This document shows, in pieces, positions 55,946 through 62,732 of a stretch of DNA of 64,000 nucleotides. Source of the stretch: Myxococcota bacterium. GTDB taxonomy: Bacteria; Myxococcota_A; UBA9160; UBA4427. The DNA lies in assembly GCA_028278345.1 (NCBI GenBank), contig JANQEL010000288.1:60614-124613 (forward strand). The letters run 5' to 3'. A program made the position numbers and the translations under genes. The notes beneath the pieces were generated by a model, which saw only the letters and a list, made by a program, of their open reading frames with translations, was not told where the DNA came from and made no database searches. How positions within the stretch are numbered: the stretch's first letter is position 1; the number at the start of each line of letters is the position of its first letter.

Positions 55946-56806
55946 CTACGTGCCGGTGAACTCCGGCGACCCGGGCGCGCGGTAGTGATCCATGGGACTG
56001 CGCAGGCCGTCACTCCCGTAGTAGTGCCCGACACCCCTGGGTGTTTCGAACAGCAGCTTCATGATCGCGCGCGCACCGTCGGCCGGCGCCTTCATGCCCG
56101 CTTCTTCGGGAGTTCGCGAGCCCAGAGTTTCGCGCCCGAGGTCGGTGTCGATGTAGCCGGGAGTGCAGGCATTCACGACGAGGTCGGGGTACTGCTTCGC
56201 GAGGTGGATCGTCAGCACGTTCGCGCACGCCTTCGAGAGTCCATAGGCCGCGCCGCCCCCCATCCCGAGGGTGTCGAGAGAGCGGAGCCCGGTGCACTGC
56301 TGCATGAACGCGTCGAGGCGTTCCCAAGTCATGGTCTCATCGGTGAAGAAAGCCTGCCGATCGGCATCGCAGCGGGCCACGAAGTTGGGGCCCGACGCCG
56401 ACGTGACGTTGACGATGCGGCCCCCTTCTTCGATCAGCGGCGCAAACGCCCGGCACATCCGCCGGATCCCGTAGGCGTTGACTTCGAGCACCTCGGCGAT
56501 ACTGCCATTGATCGCACCGGCGTTGTTCACGAGACCGGCAAGCCGAAGCGAATCGCCCTCGCGCCGCTCGGCGATCCGTTCCGCCGCTAGCGATACGGAC
56601 CGATCACTGCTGACGTCGAGTTCGAACACCTCGACGCGATCGGACCACGCCGGGTCGATCGCGAGCAGTTCGTTCCGCGCGGCCTCGCCGCGCCCCCGGT
56701 CACGCGATCCCAGGATCACCGCGTACTGCGTCTGTTCGCGGAGAATGGCCTCGACGACGGCCAGGCCGATTCCCTTGTTGGCCCCCGTGATCACGATGAA
56801 TTTCAT
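55946..56806 (-). CDS. Short-chain dehydrogenase/reductase (carbonyl reductase-like)
   Basis: MKFIVITGANKGIGLAVVEAILRE, LVNNAGAING, AAYGLSKACANVLT, ACTPGYIDTDL. Confidence 0.92.
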   Translation of the reverse strand: MKFIVITGANKGIGLAVVEAILREQTQYAVILGSRDRGRGEAARNELLAIDPAWSDRVEVFELDVSSDRSVSLAAERIAERREGDSLRLAGLVNNAGAINGSIAEVLEVNAYGIRRMCRAFAPLIEEGGRIVNVTSASGPNFVARCDADRQAFFTDETMTWERLDAFMQQCTGLRSLDTLGMGGGAAYGLSKACANVLTIHLAKQYPDLVVNACTPGYIDTDLGRETLGSRTPEEAGMKAPADGARAIMKLLFETPRGVGHYYGSDGLRSPMDHYRAPGSPEFTGT

Positions 56807-56903: not shown

Positions 56904-58073
56904 ATGGCTACCTCGAAGGTGATGTTCGAGTCGATGAACGATCGCGAGCGGCACGATCGACGCGCCACCACGAGCGGGCTTCTCGCCGCGGTGATCATCG
57001 CGACCCTCGCGATTCCCTTCGCCGCCACGACCGACGATTCGCGCGATCGCGGACGCGATCTCTACGAGCAGCGCTGCGCGCTCTGTCACGGAAGTGATGG
57101 TCGGGGCACTACGGACAACCCCGTCGTCCCCGTTCCGCGCCCCGACTTCACCGAGTGCGACTTCGCGAGCCGCGAACCGGATGCCGACTGGGGTGCCGTC
57201 GTCGCGGGTGGCGGCCCGGTGCGAGGCTTCAGTCCACTGATGCCGCCGCACGCCACCATGTTGAACGACGAAGAGATCGCTCTCATCCTGCATCACGTGC
57301 GCTCGTTCTGCAGCGATACGCGCTGGCCGCGGGGCGAGATGAACCTCCCCCGCCCGATCTTCACCGAGAAGGCCTTCCCGGAAGACGAGGTCGTGATCAC
57401 CACGCTCGGCGACGTGAACCGGGAAGCCGACGCGGTCACCACCGAGTTCCTCTTCGAGAAGCGCATCGGCCCACGCGGCATGCTCGAAGTCACCATGCCG
57501 ATCGAGTCCGTCGACGTTGCAACGGGGGGCGGCGGAACCAAGCAACGGTCGGGCATCGGCGACCTCGGGCTCGGCCTGAAGTACGCCTTCTTTCACGATC
57601 TCGACCTGGGATTCATCTCGAGCCTCGGCAGCGAATTCAAGCTGCCCACGGGCGACGAAGACCGCGGACTCGGCAAGGGGAGCGTCGTCTACGAACCCTA
57701 TCTTGCACTTGGACAGATCTTCGCGGAAGACGGCTTTGCCCAGGTCCAACTCCTCGGCGAGATCCCCACCGATCGCGATCTCTCCGACGAGGTGCAGCTG
57801 CGCACCGCGATCGGCTGGGCCTTCGAGTTGAACGAGCACGGCCGCGTGTTCGCGCCCATGGTCGAAGTCATCGGCGCCTGGGACCTGCAGGGCAAGGACG
57901 ATGCGAGCTGGGACATCGCACCCCAGATCCAGATTCCCCTGAATCGTCGCCAACACGTGCGTCTCAACCTGGCGGCGCGCATCCCACTGAGCGACACGAG
58001 CACCCGACCGACCCGCGTCGGCGGCTACCTGATGTGGGATTGGTTCGACGGCGGCCTGTTCGACGGCTGGTAG
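56904..58073 (+). CDS. Monoheme cytochrome c domain fused to predicted outer-membrane beta-barrel (MetA-degradation/transporter-like)
   Basis: TM/signal LLAAVIIATLAIPFAA; RGRDLYEQRCALCHGSDGRG (CxxCH), FSPLMPPHATML; then SGIGDLGLGLKYAFFHDLDLGFISSLGSEFKLPTGDEDRGLGKGSVVYEPYLALGQ; exact start uncertain. Confidence 0.72.
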   Translation: MATSKVMFESMNDRERHDRRATTSGLLAAVIIATLAIPFAATTDDSRDRGRDLYEQRCALCHGSDGRGTTDNPVVPVPRPDFTECDFASREPDADWGAVVAGGGPVRGFSPLMPPHATMLNDEEIALILHHVRSFCSDTRWPRGEMNLPRPIFTEKAFPEDEVVITTLGDVNREADAVTTEFLFEKRIGPRGMLEVTMPIESVDVATGGGGTKQRSGIGDLGLGLKYAFFHDLDLGFISSLGSEFKLPTGDEDRGLGKGSVVYEPYLALGQIFAEDGFAQVQLLGEIPTDRDLSDEVQLRTAIGWAFELNEHGRVFAPMVEVIGAWDLQGKDDASWDIAPQIQIPLNRRQHVRLNLAARIPLSDTSTRPTRVGGYLMWDWFDGGLFDGW

Positions 58074-58189: not shown

Positions 58190-59653
58190 ATGTCCCAGAC
58201 CACGTCCATCCGCTACACGATCATCGGCGCCGGCGCCGGGGGGTTGTGTGCCGGAATCAAGTTGCTCGAACAGGGGCAGAGCGACTTCCTGATCTTCGAT
58301 CGGGAACTCCAAGTGGGTGGCACCTGGTATCGCAACACCTATCCCGGGCTCGAGTGCGACATCGCCGCGCACCTCTACTGCTACTCCTTCGCGCCGAACC
58401 CGGATTGGTCGGGGCCTTTCCCTCCCCAACCCGAGATCCGCGCCTACCTGGAGAAGACGGCCCTAGACCGGGGCCTCGAACCCCATCTCCGCCTCGGCAA
58501 CGGCGTCGTCTCCGCACTCTGGGACGAAGACCGGGCGCGATGGCAGCTCGAACTCGAAGACGGCGGTCGGGTCGAGTCTCAATACGTGATCAGCGCGACG
58601 GGCATGTTCGGCGCCGCGGTCGTACCGGAAATCGTCGGGCTCGAGAGCTTCGAGGGCACGATCTTCCACTCGGCGAAGTGGAACCACGAACACGATCTGC
58701 GCGGCGAACGGGTGGCGATCATCGGGAGCGCTGCCAGCGCCGTCCAGTTCGTGCCGGAGATCGCACCCGAAGTCGAGCAGCTCCACGTCTTCCAGCGCAC
58801 TCCCAACTGGGTGCTGCCGAAGGCCAACGAGCCCTACACCGAAGAACAGATCGCGGCCCACCACGCCCAGCCCGAACTCATGGAGGAGAGCCGCGTACAG
58901 CTGATGAACGTGGCCGAACTCGCGCTCTCCTATACCAGCGACGACCGCACCTTCTTCGATGCGGCCGAAGACGCGGGACGCGCGGCCCTCGAAGTCGTCG
59001 AGGATCCGGAGATCCGGAAACTCCTCACCCCCGACCACCCCTTCGGCGCCAAGCGGCCCCTGCTCTCGAACAAGTACTACAAGAGCTTCAACCGGAAGAA
59101 CGTCGAACTCGTCGTCGATCCGATCGAGAAGATCACACCGAAGGGCGTGGTCACCGCGGATGGTCGGGAACGCGAGGTCGACACGATCATCCTCGCGACG
59201 GGCTTCGACACGCACAGCTACACCAGCGCGATCGACGTCCGCGGGCGCGATGGAGTCACGCTGCGAGAGGCCTGGAAGGAGGCGCCCGAAGCCTACTTCG
59301 GGGTGACCACGAGCGGTTTTCCCAACCTCTTCATGCTCTACGGCCCCAATACCAATGGCGGCAACTCGATCATCCTGATGCTCGAGTTCCAGGTCGAGTA
59401 CACCCTGCGGCTGATCGCAGAAGCCGAGCGCGCCGGTGTCGATTGGATCGACGTGCGACGTGAGGTGATGGACGAGTACAACGCCGGCCTGCAGGAAGAA
59501 CTCGACAGCGTCGCGATCTGGCACGTGGGCGCCAACGACTACTACCGCACGGCGTCGGGCAAGATCGTGACCCAGTGGCCCCAGGGCTTCTCGGTCTACA
59601 AGGAACGGGTCGACAAGGACGATCTGTCGTCCTTCGAAACGGGACAGGTCTAG
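58190..59653 (+). CDS. Flavin-containing Baeyer-Villiger-type monooxygenase
   Basis: YTIIGAGAGGLCAGIKL, GGTWYRNTYPGLECD, FEGTIFHSAKWNHEHDLRGERVAIIGSAASA. Confidence 0.92.
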   Translation: MSQTTSIRYTIIGAGAGGLCAGIKLLEQGQSDFLIFDRELQVGGTWYRNTYPGLECDIAAHLYCYSFAPNPDWSGPFPPQPEIRAYLEKTALDRGLEPHLRLGNGVVSALWDEDRARWQLELEDGGRVESQYVISATGMFGAAVVPEIVGLESFEGTIFHSAKWNHEHDLRGERVAIIGSAASAVQFVPEIAPEVEQLHVFQRTPNWVLPKANEPYTEEQIAAHHAQPELMEESRVQLMNVAELALSYTSDDRTFFDAAEDAGRAALEVVEDPEIRKLLTPDHPFGAKRPLLSNKYYKSFNRKNVELVVDPIEKITPKGVVTADGREREVDTIILATGFDTHSYTSAIDVRGRDGVTLREAWKEAPEAYFGVTTSGFPNLFMLYGPNTNGGNSIILMLEFQVEYTLRLIAEAERAGVDWIDVRREVMDEYNAGLQEELDSVAIWHVGANDYYRTASGKIVTQWPQGFSVYKERVDKDDLSSFETGQV

Positions 59654-59655
59654 CG

Positions 59656-60594
59656 TTGGCTCTCGCGCTCCAATCCGTGATGCACGTGAACGTCAACTGC
59701 TCGGATCTCGAGCAGTCGCTCCGCTTCTATCGGGACATCGTCGGATTGACACCGCAGTCCCACACGAAGCCTCTCCCCCAGGATGGGGCCGGCTTCGGTC
59801 TGACCGGGCAGGTAGTCTGGGATGCCTACCTGCTACACGACGATCGGGGGCTGGCGGGGCCGGCTCTCGATCTCCTCGAGTGGCAGGATCCGAAGCCCAT
59901 CGGCCGCCCACACCCCGAGGCCAACCACCTCGGCTTCATGCGGCTCGCACTGATGCACGACGATCTGGACGCCCTGCATGCGCGCCTGAGCGATGCCGGT
60001 ATCCGGACGCGCAGCACGGTCGTCGAGGTTCCGGTGGTTGCCGGCGAGAGCATGCGTTTCTTCTGCTGCGACGATCCCGACGGCACCTGCGTCGAGTTCA
60101 TCGAGCGGCGCGAGCCCGGCCCCGTGCGGCTTTCGCACATCAACATCAATTGCAGTGACCTCGATCGCTCGAGTGATTGGTACCGGCGCGTGCTCGGGGT
60201 CGAGCCCATCGCGCCGCGCGCGGAACCGCCGCCGGCCTCCGGTGCGGGCTTCGGCCTCGAAGGGGAGTGCCGTTACCGCGCAGACTTCCTGACGGTCGCC
60301 GGAGATCCCAACAGCTTCATCCTCGACCTGCTCGAGTGGATCGATCCGAAGCCGATCGGCCAGCCACTGGTCGAGGCCAATCACCTCGGCCCCTTCCGCA
60401 TGGCCTTCCTGGTCGCGGACGCCGACGCTTCCTGCGAAGAACTCGATCGCCTCGGCGTCGAGCACTCGGGGAAGTGTTGGCTCGAGATGGGCCCCGATCT
60501 TCCGATGATCGACGGACTCAACGCGATCTTCTTCCGTGATCCCGACGGCACGATGTTGGAGCTGATCGAAACGCCGAAGATCAAGGCTGTCTAG
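59656..60594 (+). CDS. Tandem-duplicated VOC family protein
   Basis: Two parallel halves: MHVNVNCSDLEQSLRFYRDIVGLTP...LDLLEWQDPKPIGRPHPEANHLGFMRLAL and SHININCSDLDRSSDWYRRVLGVEP...LDLLEWIDPKPIGQPLVEANHLGPFRMAF. Confidence 0.88.
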   Translation: MALALQSVMHVNVNCSDLEQSLRFYRDIVGLTPQSHTKPLPQDGAGFGLTGQVVWDAYLLHDDRGLAGPALDLLEWQDPKPIGRPHPEANHLGFMRLALMHDDLDALHARLSDAGIRTRSTVVEVPVVAGESMRFFCCDDPDGTCVEFIERREPGPVRLSHININCSDLDRSSDWYRRVLGVEPIAPRAEPPPASGAGFGLEGECRYRADFLTVAGDPNSFILDLLEWIDPKPIGQPLVEANHLGPFRMAFLVADADASCEELDRLGVEHSGKCWLEMGPDLPMIDGLNAIFFRDPDGTMLELIETPKIKAV

Positions 60595-62732
60595 CAGGCA
60601 CGCAGGCGAACCGGGATCGCGCTGAAGCGCGGCATGGCGATGATGGGATCGGAGGAATCCGCGCTCGAAAGGAGCCGTGCGGTCGAGCTGCCGACCTTCT
60701 CCGGGTTGCCGGGCGAGCCGTCGCCACTGCTCGGTCGCCCGAAGCCGTGAGCGATCGAGACCACGCCCATCCGCAGGTCCGCGTCCTCACCCACCACCGC
60801 TTCGATGCAGCCGTGGGCGGATTCGATCTCGATGCGATCGCCTGCCCGAACGCCGAGCTCTGCGAGTTCGCGGGGGTGCAGGTAGGCGGGGTTCGAGGCG
60901 CCGAGTTCGGATGTCTTCGGAAAGTCGCGCCCTACGGTGTTGGCCACGTGTTTGAGTCGACGCACCGCGAGCAGGTGCGTGAACTCGTCCTCCGGGCCAT
61001 CGCCCTCCTCCGCGAGTTCGCTCAACTCGCGGAGCGATTCTTCGGGTGCGATGCGAAGTCGCCCTTCCAATCCCTCGATCGGGGGACCGACCATCGGAGC
61101 GACCTGCTCGAAGACGTGCCCGCCCTCGTACTCGGCGATCTCGCGCAGCGGGACCTTCGTCGCCGGAAAGATCTTCTCGAGCACACCGAGGGTGTCTTCG
61201 TCCTCGCCTCCGATCGCGCCGCCGGCGAGTTCGATCTTCGTGCCCATGCGCTTCGCCAACCCGACGAAGACGCGCCAATCGTCGACGAGATCGCCACGCG
61301 CCGGGATCACCGGCTCGGTGTACTGCGCGAAGGGTTCGTCCCAGAGCATGTCTTGATAGGTCGAGAGGTCGACCCGTTCGAGGCTCTGCTTCGCGGCGAT
61401 CACGTAGTCGGCCAGCTGCGACGTCTCGGTGGGAACGACTTCGACGCAGACCAGCAGCTCGAGGGCCGAGAGCGCTTCGATCGTGCGCGCCTGATCGGGC
61501 CAGCACGCCACCGGGTTGGCGCCCACGACGATGAGTGCACGCACCTGGTCGTCGCCCGGGGTGAGGATCTCCTCGGCCAACACGCCCGTCGGCATCTCGT
61601 TGAAGACCTGTCGCACGCCGCGGATCCGAGAACGCTCGGGGTTGGCGGCGTCGTTGAGTTCCGGCGGCAGGAGCTCACGCGGAATCACCTGCGCGGGTCG
61701 GGGCAGTTCGGGCGTCAGCACACTCGGCGATCCCACCTTCTCCCCTTCGCGAGACCAACGGCCGCAGATGCTGTTCAACGCGATCAAGAGCTGCTCGGTG
61801 AGGTGGGGATGCGGGGCCATGTCGGGCCCGGTCCCCGAACTCGCGACACCGCGCGGGCCCGCGGCGAACAACCGTGCAGCGTGAACGAGCAGCTCGGTCT
61901 CGATGCCCGCCTGCCCGGCCACGACCTCGGGCGCGAAGGGCGCAACGGCCTCGCGCAGGGCAGCGAGGCCCTCGACGTTCGCTTCGCAGAAGGCCTCGTC
62001 GTGGAGCCCCTCTTCGAGGATCACCCGAATCAGCGCCGCCAGGAGGGCCGCGTCGTGTCCCGGCTTCACGGGCAGGTGGAGATCCGCCATGCGCGCGGTC
62101 TCGGTGCGGCGCGGATCGACGACGATCACCTTCAACCCGCGCTCCTTCGCTTCGCGTAGCGCCGTCGGTCGATAACCCGGAGGGCCGCCGAGCTGGTGCA
62201 GGGCCGAGACGAAGGGGTTGTTGCCGATGAGCATGATGACATCCGCGGTCTCGAACGAATGCGGGCCACCACCCCAGGTACCGGTATTCATCACCGCGAT
62301 GATCTTCGACGCCTGATCGATCGTCATCGTCGAGTAGCGATTCCGCGAACCGAGCCCGGTATGCCACGCGCGACTGATCGGGATGACGGGGGCGTTGAAA
62401 TAGGCCGCCGTACCACAGAAGGAGGCGATCGCGTTCGGGCCGTGGGCGTCGCGAATGGCTTCGAGCTTCGCCGCGATCTCGTCGAGGGCCGTGGCGGGGT
62501 CGATTGTCTCGAGAGCGCCTTCGCCACGCCGAAGACTCGATCGCAACCGCTCGGGATGATCCCACTGCGCCGCGATGTTCCGTCCCTTCACGCAGGTGTA
62601 GCCGCGGCTCATCGCGTGCGCGCGATCGCCGCGGACGCCCACGATGCGGTCGTCTTCGACATCGATCTCGAGACCACAGGAAGCCGCGCACAAGCGACAG
62701 AAGGTCCTCTTCGTTTCGATCGCCATCTCCAC
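60591..62732 (-). CDS. Molybdopterin-dependent oxidoreductase (DMSO reductase superfamily) with [4Fe-4S] site
   Basis: 713 aa; TFCRLCAASCGLEIDVEDDRIVGVRGDRAHAMSRGYTCVKG (CxxCxxxCx27C), VDPRRTETARMADLHLPVKPGHDAALL. Confidence 0.92.
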   Translation of the reverse strand: MEMAIETKRTFCRLCAASCGLEIDVEDDRIVGVRGDRAHAMSRGYTCVKGRNIAAQWDHPERLRSSLRRGEGALETIDPATALDEIAAKLEAIRDAHGPNAIASFCGTAAYFNAPVIPISRAWHTGLGSRNRYSTMTIDQASKIIAVMNTGTWGGGPHSFETADVIMLIGNNPFVSALHQLGGPPGYRPTALREAKERGLKVIVVDPRRTETARMADLHLPVKPGHDAALLAALIRVILEEGLHDEAFCEANVEGLAALREAVAPFAPEVVAGQAGIETELLVHAARLFAAGPRGVASSGTGPDMAPHPHLTEQLLIALNSICGRWSREGEKVGSPSVLTPELPRPAQVIPRELLPPELNDAANPERSRIRGVRQVFNEMPTGVLAEEILTPGDDQVRALIVVGANPVACWPDQARTIEALSALELLVCVEVVPTETSQLADYVIAAKQSLERVDLSTYQDMLWDEPFAQYTEPVIPARGDLVDDWRVFVGLAKRMGTKIELAGGAIGGEDEDTLGVLEKIFPATKVPLREIAEYEGGHVFEQVAPMVGPPIEGLEGRLRIAPEESLRELSELAEEGDGPEDEFTHLLAVRRLKHVANTVGRDFPKTSELGASNPAYLHPRELAELGVRAGDRIEIESAHGCIEAVVGEDADLRMGVVSIAHGFGRPSSGDGSPGNPEKVGSSTARLLSSADSSDPIIAMPRFSAIPVRLRAC

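Follow-up and report, generated by a model that had tools for sequence, protein, structure and literature searches.

Gene and domain layout of the locus

The subject of this study is one gene within 64,000 nucleotides of contig JANQEL010000288.1 (positions 60,614 to 124,613) from the Myxococcota bacterium assembly GCA_028278345.1, a stretch referred to as the window throughout. The gene encodes a protein in which a monoheme cytochrome c is joined to an outer-membrane beta-barrel, and which we consider, on balance, to be an outer-membrane electron-transfer protein, i.e., a cytochrome-porin fusion that belongs to another family than Cyc2. A previous interpretation made from the letters alone (the sequence-only reading) had proposed such a fusion, and the frame it had drawn, uninterrupted from its ATG start to its TAG stop, proved exact (Table 1). 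Owing to further ATGs at M7 and M11, a slight doubt attaches to the start codon.

Searches against Pfam-A placed PF00034 (Cytochrom_C, residues 49-134, E 7.6e-6, 27.6 bits at a cut-off of 21.3) and PF13557 (Phenol_MetA_deg, residues 170-273, E 4.8e-8, 33.8 bits at a cut-off of 22) in this same open frame, the latter match spanning about half of its profile. With its CXXCH, a distal Met and a helical domain in the structural model, the N-terminal part shows the hallmarks of a class I cytochrome c, the CALCH at residues 58-62 being the heme site, as had been proposed. Overall, the architecture of a His/Met monoheme cytochrome fused to a barrel of about 12 strands is well supported. The signal or transmembrane segment noted at the N-terminus is more probably a signal peptide than a retained membrane anchor, because many relatives show ordinary signal-peptide ends at that place.

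Table 1. Positions of the fusion gene, its parts and its neighbours in the window.
Feature	Position	Strand	Evidence
Entire fusion gene (cytochrome c and outer-membrane beta-barrel), 389 aa	56904..58073	+	open frame; PF00034 and PF13557; 80 full-length relatives; dN/dS ~0.18 against L006
Export signal region, residues 1-44 (start M1, M7 or M11)	56904..57035	+	low model confidence, poorly conserved; hydrophobic helix 23-34
Monoheme cytochrome c domain, residues 45-136; C58xxC61H62, distal M113, putative disulfide C85-C136	57036..57311	+	PF00034; ligand invariance; paired Cys loss
Linker, residues 137-161, W-P-x-G-E-x-N-x-P-x-x-x-x-TEKAFPED, leading into strand 1	57312..57386	+	W141, G144, N147, P149 and E155-E162 invariant
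Beta-barrel, residues 162-389 (~228 aa), 12 predicted transmembrane strands and conserved C-terminal tail DGGLFDGW	57387..58070	+	AlphaFold2; Foldseek; amphipathic alternation
Short-chain dehydrogenase/reductase (SDR) gene, divergent, upstream of the fusion	55949..56806	-	
Flavin monooxygenase gene, downstream of the fusion	58190..59653	+	
Molybdopterin oxidoreductase gene	60594..62732	-	

Conservation and distribution of the fusion

Among 85,488 species genomes scanned, 112 loci were found to encode relatives of the fusion, and the best 80 were retained; most are from metagenome-assembled genomes (MAGs), and as the scan was seeded by a pattern, the divergent end of the family is under-sampled. 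At least 80 full-length relatives share 36-75% identity with the query over nearly its entire length, and they span at least six phylum-level groups, including Acidobacteriota, Gemmatimonadota, Latescibacterota, Myxococcota/“Deltaproteobacteria”, Gamma- and Alphaproteobacteria, Rhodothermota and Aminicenantes. In all of them the two parts form one gene, so that the sequence-only reading's own concern, namely that homologues might prove to be separate genes and the fusion an isolated case, was dispelled by its recurrence across phyla.

In an alignment of 79 proteins, the window protein included, C58, C61, H62, M113 and P114 are invariant, and H116, the last residue of the “LMPPH” segment, varies. 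As M113-P114 is retained in 79/79 proteins, M113, which had been singled out from the letters, appears to be a true candidate for the Met ligand. The linker, running from W141 to TEKAFPEDE, is invariant throughout residues 155-162 and at W141, G144, N147 and P149; it displays the highest mean conservation (3.28 bits vs. 2.62 for the cytochrome and 2.37 for the barrel). Further invariant positions are Q350-H351 and the last aligned residue, W389. C85 and C136 are absent only jointly, in the same two proteins (L023 and L067), and this paired loss argues for a conserved disulfide between them.

A query restricted to linker and barrel (residues 141-389) matched 20 of 149 Acidobacteriota genomes, and the cytochrome part was present in all 18 stretches fetched for these matches as well as in four hits in already known genomes. 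Excluding four genomes that had been reached beforehand, the fusion occurs in 16/145 Acidobacteriota genomes, i.e., in about one of nine. Between the window gene and its relative L006, dN was 0.19 and dS 1.07 (non-synonymous and synonymous divergence; dN/dS ~0.18). Since heme ligands and linker are conserved, dS greatly exceeds dN and barrel-only matches carry the cytochrome, the sequences indicate that the fusion is a unit of selection and not an accident.

No plasmid-borne copy was found in PLSDB. A divergent subfamily (L113, L145-L147; ~30-37% identity) has no pentaheme gene nearby, and at least one of its members, L147, is devoid of the terminal DGW tail. Two pairs of near-identical fusion genes stem from MAGs labelled as Gemmatimonadetes and Acidobacteriota (L044/L047) or as Acidimicrobiia and Vicinamibacterales (L038/L041), which looks like either binning error or very recent transfer.

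Predicted structure of the barrel

An AlphaFold2 model built from 66 sequences reached a mean predicted local distance difference test (pLDDT) score of 89.5 and a predicted template modelling (pTM) score of 0.84. It shows a barrel, and hence the outcome that would have spoken against the initial proposal, a structure devoid of one, did not occur. Helices lie within residues 45-133 and 13 strand elements within residues 162-379, with the barrel starting at 162; these elements probably amount to 12 transmembrane strands, if 212-218 and 221-232 are taken together as a single bent strand. A Foldseek search of the PDB returned FapF as top match (E 2.5e-11, TM-score ~0.6 by target), followed by the COG4313 channel 4rl8 (E 6.3e-7). 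Together with PF13557, these fold matches bear out the assignment to the barrels of the MetA-degradation type, unlike the family of the Cyc2 barrel, and the predicted strands and the FapF match fit a 12-stranded FapF/PF13557-type barrel.

Every strand element of the barrel alternates between a hydrophobic and a polar side, and conservation is higher on the polar side, which presumably faces the lumen, than at the lipid-facing positions (p = 0.006). The periplasmic turns likewise exceed the outer loops in conservation (p = 1e-6), with a topology assignment that presumes the usual periplasmic ends. The PTG motif is retained in 64/79 relatives.

A pentaheme cytochrome adjoins the fusion gene in most relatives

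In 70 of the 80 relatives, the fusion gene is adjoined by a gene for a pentaheme cytochrome of about 550 aa. In 69/80 cases this gene directly follows the fusion on the same strand, commonly with an overlap of 11 nt that suggests translational coupling, and in L032 it stands divergently. Both genes are also present in Acidobacteria bacterium AB60 (L085), which, to judge from its record title and a physiology paper, appears to be in culture. The partner carries five CxxCH motifs (three are seen where a contig ends early), and in a neighbour-clustering scan no other neighbour proved conserved outside closely related genomes. In the 149 Acidobacteriota genomes, fusion and pentaheme occurred together in 15, the fusion only in five and the pentaheme only in three (Fisher p = 2.5e-13 with four preselected genomes removed and shared ancestry uncorrected).

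The model of the pentaheme (pLDDT 90.2, pTM 0.88) had a single significant match in the PDB, the penta-heme cytochrome c552 of Thermochromatium tepidum (5ze8, E 1.8e-17), which was also the only match in a profile search of PDB sequences. Five CXXCH, a C-terminal beta domain and the fold of 5ze8 correspond to the layout of the pentaheme cytochrome (PHC) family, to which c552 belongs. The best NCBIfam match was ExtKL with 34-46 bits, below the cut-off of 250, and by sequence the partner thus appears to be a relative of ExtKL and not its ortholog.

Around the fusion-pentaheme pair, ten MAGs of Latescibacterota and Gemmatimonadota (L015-L034) share a longer syntenic block, which includes an upstream ORF resembling an outer-membrane barrel (L018:3536-4360).

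The Myxococcota clade of the window

Together with L006 and L007-L010, the window copy makes up a Myxococcota clade that has full support, lacks an adjacent pentaheme gene and is nested among partner-linked copies. As the tree was obtained by a quick search and is unrooted, loss of the pentaheme in this clade is only inferred. Within the region L087:4655-10278 on contig C97 (genome G000), the genome of the window encodes a distant pentaheme of 641 aa, which has the same layout as the partner, with five CxxCH and a C-terminal beta-type domain, as well as MtrC-like and c554-like Pfam hits. It adjoins genes for YceI, glucose/sorbosone dehydrogenase and an unassigned, secreted-looking protein of 464 aa, and is a candidate substitute for the missing partner.

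Full-length fusions are patchy among near relatives (6/61 genomes, the window's own counted). The two-gene form is found in L012, which a contig match assigns to a genome (G014) of the same family as the window; L012 is located elsewhere in the tree than the window clade, and this placement suggests horizontal transfer.

Discussion

The layout of the fusion is reminiscent of the iron oxidases Cyc2 and Cyc572 of Leptospirillum, which likewise combine a signal peptide, an N-terminal monoheme domain and a C-terminal outer-membrane barrel in a single chain; as in Cyc2, one CXXCH precedes the barrel, and the distribution of both families over the phyla is patchy. Cyc2 is further characterized by the motifs AXPXFAR[Q/K][T/Y] and PXL and by a 16-stranded porin that resembles OprO/OprP and is poorly conserved (PMC8406198). 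Neither AXPXFAR[Q/K][T/Y] upstream of the CXXCH nor PXL was present in any of the 79 aligned proteins, including that of the window. Moreover, the barrel of the fusion has about 12 strands, is of the FapF/PF13557 type and strongly conserved, and a pentaheme gene adjoins it in most relatives. Membership in Cyc2 was rejected on account of the missing diagnostic motif and the differences in strand count and barrel family, and the description as a Cyc2-like layout without Cyc2 ancestry consequently held.

The best matches in sequence and fold, FapF and the COG4313/PF13557 barrels, share with the fusion the 12 strands, a PTG in a long loop and an N-terminal periplasmic extension. FapF is gated by an N-terminal helical plug and has PTG motifs (PMC5557850). 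This extension, however, consists of a coiled coil and the helical plug in FapF, which serves amyloid export, whereas it is a heme c domain in the fusion. With regard to the partner, the conduit cluster ExtHIJKL of Geobacter has ExtKL as its periplasmic pentaheme and ExtI as an outer-membrane protein (PMC6148476), and a study from 2025 assigned ExtKL and pentahemes of cable bacteria to one family, structurally similar to c552 and to an archaeal cytochrome nanowire (PMC11976967). The pairing of an outer-membrane barrel gene with a periplasmic-type pentaheme is thus common to ExtI/ExtKL and the fusion, but the barrel of the latter is small and bears its own heme, and the window's genome lacks the partner save for a distant relative. 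MtrAB, PioAB and MtoAB also combine an outer-membrane barrel with c-type cytochromes; there, a barrel of 26 strands surrounds a separate decaheme cytochrome, in contrast to a small barrel with one heme, and no homology of the fusion to these complexes was found in this analysis. In the open-licence PMC literature searched, we found work on Cyc2, Cyc572, Mto, Ext and cable bacteria, but no description of the present family.

Cytochrome domains with CxxCH and His/Met ligation of this kind serve as electron carriers, both termini of outer-membrane barrels lie in the periplasm, and a lone heme does not pass electrons across a membrane unaided. In the mechanism we envisage, the fusion would be exported and receive its heme in the periplasm, and the barrel would be inserted into the outer membrane with both ends periplasmic. 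The cytochrome domain could then dock on the conserved periplasmic turns and cap the mouth of a narrow polar pore. This position is more likely than one inside the barrel, because 12 strands appear too narrow for a whole cytochrome c, and the “heme-plugged” barrel of the sequence-only reading, itself only inferred, would rather be a capped one. Because one heme cannot span the membrane, a small redox-active solute would most likely enter the polar lumen and, at the inner end of the latter, give an electron to the heme or take one from it; alternatively, another heme protein would have to extend the path outward. For Cyc2, Fe(II) has been proposed to reach the heme through the barrel in a similar manner (PMC8406198). 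Between the fusion and the respiratory chain, the periplasmic pentaheme would relay the electron, in either direction, and in the window clade another periplasmic carrier, e.g., the distant pentaheme on C97, would have to take its place.

The conserved pair of fusion and pentaheme points to an undescribed route for electrons at the cell surface. A bolder proposition, to which we give slightly less than even credence, is that fused cytochrome-porins comprise a third class of independent origin, in which a 12-stranded, heme-capped barrel and a PHC-type pentaheme make up a compact two-gene electron conduit. It would serve Acidobacteriota, Gemmatimonadota, Latescibacterota, Proteobacteria and Myxococcota from soil, sponges and marine habitats, none of them known for extracellular electron transfer. 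Several points weigh against a role in electron transfer. According to the record titles, the relatives inhabit sponges, soils and marine water, which are atypical of metal respiration, and cytochrome domains that are joined to other modules in some cases serve enzymes and not conduits. In addition, no cognate pentaheme was found in the window, its flanking regions or the genomes of its clade beyond distant relatives, and the genes between which the fusion stands alone in the window, SDR and flavin monooxygenase, are unrelated. For the window's organism, electron transfer by the fusion would be assigned by homology alone, because its clade has no pentaheme partner.

Among the alternatives, redox-gated or redox-coupled uptake appears unlikely: here, a channel of the MetA/COG4313 type would admit a small organic solute, the cytochrome acting as gate or as acceptor for a periplasmic enzyme oxidizing that solute. 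PF13557 and the COG4313 channel are indeed uptake-type barrels, in FapF-type barrels an N-terminal plug acts as the gate (PMC5557850), and the lumen residues of the fusion are conserved. Nevertheless, no catabolic or dehydrogenase genes are conserved beside it, and the neighbour-clustering scan, with the pentaheme as its only result outside closely related genomes, led us to reject a conserved catabolic operon. Of the two functions first suggested, electron movement and uptake coupled to redox, the former was strengthened by the partner gene and the latter found no matching neighbourhood. A somewhat smaller chance is given to a periplasmic redox enzyme or detoxification system, in which the pentaheme would reduce a small oxyanion or a nitrogen or sulfur compound and the fusion would tether its electron donor at the entry point in the outer membrane. 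The c552 of T. tepidum, the nearest solved fold, has a suggested role in sulfur metabolism (PMC11976967), and Geobacter with a deletion of extI is impaired in reducing selenite and tellurite (PMC6148476); yet conserved enzyme neighbours are absent, and the His/Met monoheme is presumably of the electron-transfer and not of the catalytic type.

For the window clade only, a drift of the fusion to a structural or scaffold role after loss of the partner would be in line with the missing cognate pentaheme in all six Myxococcota copies and with their well-supported position among partner-linked ones. We regard it as highly improbable, as heme ligands, linker and the putative disulfide are all retained and dN/dS against L006 is low. 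That two adjacent genes were merely joined by chance or during assembly has a negligible probability and was rejected, since the same fusion with its conserved linker recurs in at least 80 assemblies and the barrel-only query yielded no barrel without a cytochrome.

Surveys of extracellular electron transfer search by sequence for Cyc2, MtrAB/PioAB and Geobacter-type conduits. As the fusion family has none of these signatures, such surveys are expected to miss it. If the fusion moves electrons, outer-membrane redox chemistry would extend to major soil and sponge lineages. The family also shows that fusions of cytochrome and barrel have evolved more than once. Comprising two genes only, the fusion-pentaheme module is small enough for testing in E. 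coli.

Apart from the genes discussed above, the window contains a molybdopterin oxidoreductase of 713 aa with an Fe4S4 domain, encoded two genes downstream of the fusion.
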